Assembly: GCA_016178505.1 (NCBI GenBank)
Contig: JACOTG010000166.1
Coordinates: 1 to 64,000, forward strand
Origin: Planctomycetota bacterium
GTDB lineage: Bacteria; Planctomycetota; JACOTG01
DNA length: 64,000 nt
Direction of reading: 5' to 3'
The notes under the pieces are model-generated. The model was not told the origin of the DNA. It did not search any database and saw only the letters and a list, made by a program, of their open reading frames with translations. The translations under genes were made by a program, and so were the position numbers. Numbering within the stretch: position 1 is the stretch's first letter; each line of letters begins with the position of its first letter. Shown here piece after piece: positions 49,466-61,731 of this stretch.

Positions 49466-49813
49466 AACGAGTACCTCAAGACGTCCGGTCGCATCGGCAA
49501 CACGCGGTATCAAGATCTGCTCGGCGTTGCCAAGCGCACTGCCCACCGGGACCTGACCGACCCTGCGGAGAAGGGCGTCGTGGAGCGGATCGGGTCGACC
49601 GGCAAAGCGGCCCATGGGGCCATCGAGAACACGTCGAAGGCAATGATCCACGCGCATCGAAGGGATCGGCTCGGAGGGCAAGCGCCAGCGGCCGACAGAC
49701 ACGAGGAGGCAAGCGATGAGCGGAGTGAGAACGCAAATCAACGGGCCAGCACCGGCACGCGCGACGAGTCGGTGATCGCCGAGTCTGAATTCGAATCCAA
49801 TCCCTTGGCATGA
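49466..49813 (+). pseudogene. C-terminal HTH fragment of a Fic/AlbA-type protein
   Basis: Directly after an in-frame TGA the frame reads NEYLKTSGRIGNTRYQDLLG, VAKRTAHRDLTDPAEKGVVE, RIGSTGKAAHG, which matches the winged-helix end of Fic-domain or AlbA/RecG-like regulators (usually NEYLKTSGRIGNAEYQ-type, then VSKRTAHRDLTDLVEKG). No start codon and no upstream domain exist; the tail after RIGSTGK has drifted. A short relic of a mobile or defence-type gene. Confidence 0.45.
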
Positions 49814-49905
49814 ACACGACGGCGCGTGCTGCCCTGGATCGCAAACTGGCCTGAGCGACTCGACCCGTGAAACGGCCGCTCATCAGGCTCGTACTCTTCG
49901 CCGCC

Positions 49906-51765
49906 ATGAAACACAAACATCGATCGCTCGCCATCGCCGCTCTCGCCGTGACGTGTTCTCTGGCCGCGTTCCTCGCGCACGCTGCAGGGCAGGACGGAAA
50001 ACCCGACCCGCTCGCTGCGGACATCCACCGTTGGTCGGACTACGTGAAGAGCAACACGTCGACCGACGAGTTGTGGGCGCAGGTGAAGAGCGGAGCCGCG
50101 CCGATCCTCGAGAGCGCCGATCAGTCGCTGCGCGACGGGCGACGCTGGCTGGCGCTGACGCGCCTCGCCGCCGTGCGCGTGAACCTCGCGGCTTCGGTCT
50201 ATGCGAGCGAGCACGCGGCCGGCCAGTTCAAGGACGACGCGGCGCTCGAAGCAGAGTGGACGCGCATGGGCGGCGTGCTTCGCGACGCGCTCGGCCCAAC
50301 GTCGCCGAACGGCTTGGACGGCGTCGCGCCCGCAGCGGTTCGAGCGCAGGCCGAGGTGGCACTGCCGCAAGTGCGCGGGTTCTACGACACGAGCCTCGAG
50401 TACGCGAAGAACACCGCACCCGAGTACGGCCTCTTCTACATCGGACAAGCGCAAGCGCAGCGCGACTTCGTGGCGCTGTGTCGATCGCTTTCGGCGGCCA
50501 CGTCGCTTCGCGCGCCGCCGCTGCGCGATCTCCGCGCCGAACTCGACGCGCTCGAAACCGAGATGCTCGCCGCATATCGGCCGCCTGTGTCGATCAACCG
50601 GCACCCCGAGTTCATCGTCGCCAGCTCGACCTTGAACGAAGCGCGCGAGCTGGACGCGGCCGGGCTCCGTTACGGCGCGCTCTTGCGGTATCTGCAAGCC
50701 GCGCTCCGATTCGCTCCGCTGCGCGCGACGCCGGCGACGCTCGACAAGGCCGCGCTCGCGTCGACGCTGCACGACCTCGATGCGCGCCTCTCCGCCGCCG
50801 GCGTCGACCACACGATCGGTCGAACGTTTCTCGAAGCGGCGCAGGCCGAGGTTGCGGCCGGCGTCCCGTTCGGCGGCCAGCCCGCCGCAGCGACGATCGT
50901 GACCGACGTCTTGCCGCGCTACTTCGCCGCGTTGGAGCCCGCCAAGCCCGCGCCGCCGAAGCCCGCGGCGCAAGTCAAGGTCACGCTCGTTCGCTGGCCC
51001 TACACCTGAAACATCTCCGACCCGGCAAGTTTGCTGGCCCAAAGCGTGGTGGCGGAGTTCGGCGGCAAAGCGAAGTTCGTGTCCGAGAACTACGGCGGCT
51101 CGGAGCTGGCGAAGCGGTTCGGCGTCACGCGATACCCGGCGATCTTCGTCGACGACATCCTCGTCGCGACTCCCGACGACTTCGGGTTCTACGGCAAGGG
51201 CGAAGACGAGAAGGGCGGACGCTACGCGCCGCTCAAGAGCGCCGCCGCGCATGAACGATTCCGCGCCGATCTCAAGTCGATGATCGATCTCATCCTCGCG
51301 GGAAAGAAGGACGCTGCTCGCGCGCAGGCCGCGCCGGTGAAGCCGGGCGAGGTCGCCGAGTTTCCCGACGTCACGCTCACGGACTTGGACGGAAAGACGC
51401 TGACGCGCTCCGAACTGAAAGAACGCGTCGTTCTCGTCGACCTGTGGGCGACGTGGTGCCCGCCGTGCCGCGGCACATTGCCGTGGTTGGGCGAATTGAA
51501 GAAGCGCTTCGGCGATCGCCTCGCGATCGTCGCGATCGCCGTCGAGTCGAAGGAGGATGCCGTGCGAAAGATCGCCAATGATCTGAATCTCCCCGTCACG
51601 TGGGTGATGGGCTCGCCGGATCTCGTTCGCTTGTTCGGCGACGTCAGCGCGGTGCCGACGCTCCTCGTCTTCGACCGCGAAGGCCACTCGGCCGCGGCCT
51701 TTTACGGCGCACCGCCGACCCTGCACGCCGAAGTGGAAGCCAAGCTCACGTCGTTGGTGAAGTAG
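49906..51765 (+). CDS. secreted double-thioredoxin protein, probable selenoprotein (UGA at 51007-51009 read as Sec)
   Basis: A signal peptide (residues ~1-32, ending AHA-AGQ) leads a ~300-residue helical domain. Then KVTLVRWPYT is followed in frame by TGA and by NISDPASLLAQSVVAEFGG and FGVTRYPAIFVDD, which is a thioredoxin fold whose active-site Cys position is exactly the TGA. Read as Sec368, the motif is U-N-I-S. A second, TlpA-type thioredoxin domain follows with WCPPC (Cys518, Cys521) and SAVPTLLVF (cis-Pro). Total 619 aa. The part after TGA has no start codon before LLAQSVV, and the first part ends in mid-strand, so two separate genes make no structural sense. A hairpin with GU in the loop starts 12 nt after the UGA. 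GTG 49867 is an alternative start. Confidence 0.72.
51022..51037 (+). promoter_or_regulatory. possible bacterial SECIS hairpin
   Basis: CCGGCA-AGUU-UGCUGG: a 6-bp stem with one G-U pair and an AGUU apical loop, with the loop starting 19 nt after the UGA. Loop size, distance and a G in the first two loop positions meet the bacterial SECIS rules as I know them. Confidence 0.5.
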
Positions 51766-59817: not shown

Positions 59818-61731
59818 ATGGTCTCGAAACCCGACAGCCGGTCGCGTTTGCTGCATCCGCTCGTCCGCGAAGGCGGCCGGGGCGGACACCTTCGCCGGGC
59901 CACGTGGGACGAGGCGCTCGATCGCGCCGCCGCGGGCCTGAAGGGCGCGGTCGACCGACACGGCTCGCAGACGTTCGGACTCTTCAGCTGCTCGAAGAGC
60001 ACGAACGAGATGAACTTCGTCTCTCAGAAGTTCGCGCGGGTCGTGTTCGGCAGCAACAACTGCGACAGCTGCAACCGAACCTGACACGCTCCTAGCGTCG
60101 CCGGTCTGGCGGCTGTCTTCGGAGCGGGTGGCGGAACGAACTCGTATCGCGAAATCGAGGAAGGGGACCTCGTCATCTTGTGGGGAAGCAATGCGCGCGA
60201 GACGCACCCGATCTTCTTCCATCATCTATTGAAGGGAATCCACCGGGGCATGCGCGTGCTCGCGGTCGATCCGCGCCGCACGAGCTCGGTGCAATGGGCG
60301 GACCTCTGGGCCGGGATCGACGTCGGCTCGGACATCGCGCTCGCGAACGCGATGGGTCGCGAGATCATCGCCGAGGGGCTCGAGCGCCGCGACTTCATCG
60401 ACCGCGCGACCACGAACTTCGAGGAGTATCGCGCATCGGTCGAGAGCTGCACGCTCGAGTGGGCGGAACAAGAGACGGGCGTGCCCGCGCGCGTCATCCG
60501 GCAGATGGCTCACGAGTACGCGAAGGCCGATCGCGCCATGATCTGCTGGACGCTCGGCATCACCGAGCACCACAACGCCGTCGACAACGTGTTCGCGCTG
60601 ATCGACCTCGCGCTCCTGACCGGCCACGTCGGGCGCTACGGCTGCGGCCTCAACCCGCTTCGCGGACAGAACAACGTGCAAGGCGGCGGCGACATGGGTG
60701 CCTTGCCCGATCGACTGCCGGGGTTCCAGCACGTCGAGAACGACGAGTTCCGCGCGAAGTTCGAGCGCGCGTGGGGCGTCAAGGTCCCACCGAAGCGCGG
60801 CTGGCACCTGAGCGGGATGTTCGACGCGATGGAGCGCGGGGAGATGCGGGCGCTCTACGTCATCGGCGAGAACCCGATGCAGTCCGAGGCCGACCAGACG
60901 CGCACGCGCCATCTGCTCGAAGGGCTCGAGTTCATCGTCGCGCAGGACATCTTCCTCACGAAGACCGCCGAGATTGCCGACGTCGTGTTCCCCGCGGCCG
61001 CCGCGTGGTGCGAGTCGGAAGGCACCGTGACGAACAGCGAGCGTCGCGTGCAGCGCGTTAGGAAGGCGCTCGCGCTCCCGGGCGACGCGCGCGACGACGT
61101 CACGATCCTCTTCGATCTCGCGCGACGGCTCGGCCACGACTGGGGCACGCCGGACTCCGAGAAGATCTGGAACGAAGTGCGCAGCCTGAGTCCGGTGCAC
61201 GCCGGCATGAGCTATGCGCGGCTCGAAGCCCTGGGCGGCTTGCAGTGGCCCTGCTACGACGACACGCATCCGGGCGAACTCTTCCTCCACAGCCGATTGT
61301 GGGAGAACCCGGTGCCGGGACCGAAGGTGTCGTTCATGCCGGTCGTCCACGATCCGCCGGTCGACAAGCTCGATGCGGATTTTCCGCTGCGCCTCACGAC
61401 GGGGCGGAGGCTCGACGACTACAACACGGGCGTGCAATCGCGACGCTATCGCTCGCCGCTCCGGCGAGGCGAGACGCTCGATGTGTCGCCGGAAGACGCG
61501 ACGCGCCTCGGCGTGGCCGAGGGCGAGGTCGTTCGCGTGCGCTCGCGACGCGGCGCGGTCGACGTCCCCGTGCGGCGCGACGAATCGCTGCGACCCGGCC
61601 TCGTCTTCATGACGCTCCACTTCCAGGACGACGTCGCGACGAACCTACTCACGATCGACGCGACAGATCCCAAGAGCGGCACCGCGGAATTCAAGGCCAC
61701 CGCCGTTCGCGTCGAGCGGCTGAGGAACTGA
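59818..61731 (+). CDS. fdhA: formate dehydrogenase, molybdopterin catalytic subunit, Sec-containing
   Basis: 637-aa selenoprotein read through TGA 60082-60084. The residues around it, SCNRT-U-HAPSVAGLAAVFG, are the catalytic site of formate dehydrogenases, where Sec (or Cys) binds molybdenum and the next His acts in proton transfer. So Sec89 is well supported; a GGUCU hairpin follows. The rest is the standard molybdopterin oxidoreductase body (LWGSNARETHPIFFHHLLKG, NPLRGQNNVQGGGDMGALPD) and the molydopterin-binding C-terminus. It starts at the HPLVREGG position, so the usual N-terminal [4Fe-4S] domain is missing and must come from another subunit. ATG 59818 has GGAGGT. Confidence 0.92.
60097..60113 (+). 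promoter_or_regulatory. SECIS hairpin of fdhA
   Basis: GUCGCC-GGUCU-GGCGGC: 6-bp stem with one U-G pair and the apical loop GGUCU, starting 18 nt after the UGA. The loop is the same as the key part of the Escherichia coli fdhF SECIS, which binds SelB. Confidence 0.75.

Follow-up and report, generated by a model that had tools for sequence, protein, structure and literature searches.

A predicted selenoprotein family of Planctomycetota combining a thioredoxin-like Sec domain with a TlpA-type CPPC domain

Closest described selenoproteins

In the selenoprotein glutaredoxins, including the Grx-like and PDO-type proteins (PF00462; TIGR02187), Sec occupies the first active-site position of a thioredoxin-superfamily domain, and the protein described here seems to share this arrangement. 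TIGR02187 and Grx1/Grx3 are also the nearest profile matches of its Sec domain, and these matches are weak. However, the new protein has a UxxS rather than a UxxC motif, scored 17.3 bits against a cut-off of 185, lacks a PF00462 match, and is apparently exported and fused to helical and TlpA domains. It was not assigned to the selenoprotein glutaredoxins, given the UxxS motif and the missing PF00462 match.

The TlpA/ResA-type selenoproteins (the UGC-containing TlpA; WAxxUGC, NF041054; the redoxin UxxC) also combine Sec with an exported TlpA-type thiol oxidoreductase domain; whereas here the TlpA domain keeps its CPPC, and the Sec is located in a separate thioredoxin-like domain about 150 residues upstream. 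The NF041054 model matched the TlpA part only (37 bits against a cut-off of 300). Trx7/PDZ and other fused thioredoxin-like selenoproteins (NF041199), which are known from catalogues only, are likewise multi-domain and thioredoxin-like. They differ in their partner domains and CxxU motif, and gave no match in the NCBIfam scan.

The first-pass annotation had described a selenoprotein family not previously known, and this agrees with the present comparison. Table 1 of the 119-family prokaryotic selenoprotein catalogue of 2026 (PMC13188914) has no entry with the same architecture and Sec motif, and no NCBIfam model scored above cut-off with the Sec domain of any member. The locus is thus predicted to represent a new bacterial selenoprotein family, absent from both resources, and would add to the bacterial selenoproteins an architecture outside the catalogue. 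The family could already stand unnamed elsewhere, for example in the groundwater MAG survey cited with PMC13188914.

Gene structure and fold of the Sec domain

The window, that is, the whole stretch of 64,000 nucleotides analysed, lies within a 7.16-Mb draft genome (G000; 92% complete) of a Planctomycetota bacterium. A complete selenoprotein gene was predicted on the forward strand at 49906-51765, with an ATG start and a TAG stop (51763-51765), encoding 619 residues with Sec at position 368. In the frame from the ATG at 49906, the TGA at 51007-51009 is the sole interruption before the TAG. One frame of 252 codons had been claimed to run from this TGA to a TlpA-type CPPC domain; the translation bore this out, the 252 codons being 251 sense codons and the stop. 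The gene was considered complete because homologues in other genomes have equal length and architecture.

The N-terminus was read as a probable signal peptide (MKHKHRSLAIAALAVTCSLAAFLAHAA; 49906-49986, forward strand), with a basic n-region, a hydrophobic core and an AHA-A-like end. Similar N-termini were found in the homologues, and the protein is probably exported through this signal-peptide-like segment. It is followed by an all-alpha-looking helical domain of about 320 residues (49987-50940) without a Pfam family, which is placed C-terminally in the G382 proteins, and then by a proline-rich linker. The Sec domain, delimited at 50971-51315 from the family alignment, starts with VTLVRWPYT-U-NISDPASLL and extends through GVTRYPAIFV, with a UxxS motif and a cis-Pro-like loop (RYPA). 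The TlpA/ResA-type domain (Redoxin, AhpC-TSA; 51358-51762) carries CPPC at 51457-51468 and was recognized by the Pfam Redoxin model (49.9 bits; cut-off 26.6). On the opposite strand there is a 662-codon open frame (49738-51726), and similar frames lie opposite several homologues; it is probably a high-GC shadow frame.

The Pfam scan of the Sec domain found no family above cut-off, PF00462 included. Profile comparison with PDB entries gave E. coli Grx1 as the best match (E = 0.03-0.14, weak), and TIGR02187 reached E = 0.0023 in one member, which is weak and below its cut-off. AlphaFold models from single sequences were poor (pLDDT 57.6 and 43.5), and a Foldseek search with a low-confidence model returned mostly glutaredoxins as best matches, with E values of at least 0.17. 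When the profile alignment with TrxA of E. coli was extended without gaps, the Sec paired with Cys32 and the Ser with Cys35, and GV.RYPA.FV fell at the cis-Pro position. These weak, mutually consistent thioredoxin and glutaredoxin matches suggest that the Sec domain is thioredoxin-like. The first-pass placement of the TGA at the active-site Cys of a thioredoxin fold is supported by the ungapped extension, with the fold itself assigned from those weak matches.

The predicted SECIS hairpin

Bacterial SECIS elements have been described by a loop of 3-9 nt, a stem of 4-16 bp, G[G/U] in the first loop positions, a spacing of 16-37 nt and an MFE of <= -7.5 (PMC13188914). The hairpin CCGGCA-AGUU-UGCUGG (51022-51037, loop 51028-51031) agrees with these published constraints. 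It has 6 bp including one G-U pair, its loop begins 18 nt after the UGA, and with three flanking nucleotides at either end it folds at -7.9 kcal/mol (-7.2 for the bare 16-mer). A SECIS-like hairpin with the right distance and loop had been proposed at exactly this place, and it was also found to be kept in nine genes. The 57-nt context lies in GC-rich surroundings and folds no better than its shuffles (z = 0.45), and the loose bSECIS model was reached by chance in 2-42% of the synonymous shuffles of individual genes; the weight was therefore put on the fixed offset and the conservation rather than on the energy.

The pattern CC(A/G)GCA-(AGUU or GGUC)-UGCUGG is found in all nine Sec genes, and in each of them the loop begins 18 nt past the UGA. 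The two bases that close the loop covary, being either A-U or G-C. The SECIS of E. coli fdhF similarly has a GGUC loop 18 nt after its UGA, and its core GCAGGUCUGC is identical in four of the nine members; whereas the loop is AGUU in the other five, including the gene of the window. The formate dehydrogenase gene fdhA of the window also has GGUC at the 18-nt offset. The Ala codon GCA is present in all nine Sec genes, although it makes up only 3-19% of their Ala codons. When codons were shuffled synonymously, keeping the protein fixed and sampling from the codon usage of the gene in question, the probability of a 6-bp stem at the observed offset ranged from 0.0003 (G000) to 0.08 per gene. Multiplied across six genera as if these were independent, the values give a joint probability of about 9e-14, whose strength is exaggerated so far as the genera are non-independent. 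Chance is excluded by the eight homologous genes elsewhere, in which both the TGA codon and the hairpin recur at the corresponding place. In the Cys paralogue (see below) the hairpin is lost and the stem is zero. The Rfam scan of the window found nothing.

Homologues and domain architecture

A first search of 392 genomes of the phylum revealed three further genomes, and searches of their classes revealed five more. The Sec form is therefore present in nine genomes (G000, G339, G202, G382, G416, G417, G418, G424 and G441), of which the eight others belong to the same phylum and to at least two other classes; the family occurs in about 1% of the sampled phylum members. A second phylum-wide search with a ten-row profile found no further genome, a single-protein search of the genome contigs returned one unrelated TlpA and nothing else, and the family was not found in viral contigs or in plasmids. 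The thioredoxin-like domains share 44-64% identity with that of the 619-residue protein in the Sec forms, and 43% in the Cys form.

The TGA is at the same codon in all nine Sec-form genes. A Cys aligned with it was sought among the homologues, and one was found, in a second paralogue of G382 (contig C131; WPFL-C-RLSDPAS), where the codon is TGC and the TlpA domain is absent. None of the homologues splits at this site; all run through with TGA or TGC. The dN/dS ratios were 0.28-0.49 for the thioredoxin-like part after the TGA, 0.21-0.73 for the TlpA part and 0.33-0.67 for the upstream helical part. With all values below 1, selection is purifying before as well as after the TGA, and the downstream part is evidently translated under constraint. 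Moreover, six of the nine genes terminate at a TGA, which indicates that UGA is not simply reassigned and that its decoding depends on context.

From the N-terminus, eight of the nine Sec proteins read helical, Trx(U), TlpA; whereas the G382 Sec protein has the permuted order Trx(U), TlpA, helical. The N-terminal helical domains are homologous to the C-terminal ones of G382 (hhalign, probability 98.9, E = 3.4e-17). The Cys paralogue starts with an ECF sigma factor (Sigma70_r2, r4), followed by a hydrophobic segment, Trx(C) and the helical domain. From these orders the core of the family would therefore be the thioredoxin-like and helical domains, with the TlpA domain accompanying Sec throughout the sample. 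The spread of the family, the permuted order in one genome and the sigma-factor-fused Cys paralogue extend beyond the first-pass annotation.

Some observations were also made on gene neighbours. The gene for the Cys paralogue (G382:C131, L030:3862-5910, reverse strand) joins the ECF sigma factor through the hydrophobic segment to the CxxS thioredoxin-like and helical domains, and its product is a possible membrane-tethered, redox-responsive sigma factor. A Trans_reg_C/beta-propeller regulator (L030:5991-8066) lies between the Sec and Cys genes. Two genomes from different classes each have a regulator gene (L029:6681-8447 and L058:6225-8036, both forward strand) that adjoins the Sec gene and is transcribed away from it; these regulators combine TPR repeats with an HTH-like segment at the N-terminus.

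Sec decoding capacity of the genome

The decoding machinery had been expected from the window alone, and selA, selB, selC and selD were all found in the genome. The tRNA-Sec gene selC (C3:10785-10877; 71.6 bits, anticodon tca), selD (C3:12170-13141; 337.8 bits) and selA (C3:13235-14725; 551.9 bits) are located on one contig, and selB is on C140 (350.8 bits, above its cut-off). The Sec formate dehydrogenase noted earlier in the window was also verified. Its alpha-subunit gene, separate from the new gene, has the Sec codon TGA at 60082-60084 on the forward strand, with a hairpin loop GGUC starting 18 nt downstream, and the product matched the Fdh-alpha family with 647 bits over the part tested. 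The presence of this enzyme in the window itself supports Sec decoding in the organism. The selA gene was found in all family-bearing genomes except G424, which is only 67% complete.

Proposed function and alternative explanations

Judged from sequence comparison, the UGA at 51007-51009 is very probably decoded as Sec, giving an exported selenoprotein for which an internal Sec-to-CPPC relay is proposed. That the gene product is a selenoprotein appears nearly certain; that it works as a redox enzyme with an internal relay is favoured only by a small margin over its not doing so. The Sec domain lacks any other Cys in all Sec forms, and the only redox residues conserved in all nine are the U and the TlpA CxxC (CPPC or CVPC), from which the relay was inferred. 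SelA, SelB, SelC and SelD of the organism would insert Sec at the UGA under the direction of the hairpin at 51022-51037. Outside the cytoplasm, in the periplasm, the selenol might attack an oxidised substrate (a peroxide, disulfide, sulfenic acid or mixed disulfide), and the TlpA CPPC further along the chain could resolve the selenenic or selenenylsulfide form that results. The CPPC would then be re-reduced by a DsbD/CcdA-type membrane reductant, which we assume from TlpA-type proteins in general. For the helical domain, binding of the substrate or of a partner is the probable role. With a Sec domain that lacks a resolving Cys beside an intact TlpA domain, the protein would be a natural model in which to test intramolecular selenol-dithiol relays beyond the cytoplasm.

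Standard annotation would read the TGA as a real stop, leaving a 367-residue helical protein and, downstream, a separate gene or a decayed remnant; a TTG start is available at 51031. However, this TTG is inside the hairpin, and a start there would lose the first strand and the active site, in line with the earlier claim that no downstream start preserves the fold. In nine genomes the conservation of the thioredoxin-like domain continues past the TGA, selection downstream of it is purifying, the Sec genes are present, the SECIS is at the fdhF offset, and a Cys form exists in G382, so that a real stop is highly improbable. The gene shows how standard annotation splits selenoprotein genes in two at the UGA. 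Single-base errors do occur in draft assemblies, and a TGG or TGC might have been misread at 51007, or UGA might mean Trp or Cys throughout. The same-codon TGA in nine independent assemblies makes a sequencing error very unlikely, and a different meaning of the codon is contradicted by the six of nine genes that end in TGA, on which ground genome-wide reassignment was rejected; the probability left to an error or another codon meaning is negligible. Both the real stop and the sequencing error were rejected on the nine conserved TGAs, the purifying selection downstream and the Cys form.

Other explanations accept the Sec but give the protein a different role. As a sensor, the thioredoxin-like (Sec or Cys) and helical domains would form a periplasmic redox-sensing module whose signal goes to a sigma factor in the membrane or to a one-component regulator. 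The sigma-factor-fused Cys paralogue ties this module to signalling: it carries Pfam sigma regions 2 and 4 and a hydrophobic, probably membrane-spanning segment, and in G382 it shares a same-strand cluster with the Trans_reg_C/beta-propeller regulator and the Sec gene. HTH/TPR-type regulator genes also adjoin the Sec gene, divergently transcribed, in G202 and G441. However, neither G000 nor the g233 genus showed such a regulator link, the TlpA domain points to turnover, and regulators of these types are common in many comparable genomes; a sensor role is therefore rather unlikely. It is also doubtful, and should be taken as speculation, that the Sec protein pairs with the ECF-sigma-fused Cys paralogue for redox sensing across the envelope, in which case the periplasmic UxxS/CxxS thioredoxin-like and helical modules would report oxidants to the membrane-tethered sigma factor, with the selenoprotein as primary receptor. 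The Sec might instead be a metal or metalloid ligand and not a redox catalyst, as was proposed for the SaoB, SaoC and UXX-star selenoproteins (PMC13188914). Such a role would suit a selenol that stands alone, with no resolving Cys beside it in the domain, and metal roles are common among selenoproteins lacking an assigned function (PMC13188914); whereas every one of the nine Sec forms is fused to a TlpA CxxC domain and no metal-resistance genes were seen adjoining the gene, which makes a ligand role improbable.

Other candidate selenoprotein genes

The genome also contains two TlpA/ResA-type genes with TGA in FWASW-UGPC, L002 (C95:20532-20966) and L003 (C265:23323-23643), which are UxxC selenoproteins of known kind; in L002 the hairpin GUGCGGAGUUUCCGCAC is directly downstream. 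A third TlpA-like match (C106:31860-32249) has one in-frame TGA. Since selA is above cut-off in 41 of the 44 sampled genomes of the phylum, and thus nearly universal, this phylum is seemingly rich in Sec use and may hold further unannotated selenoproteins.
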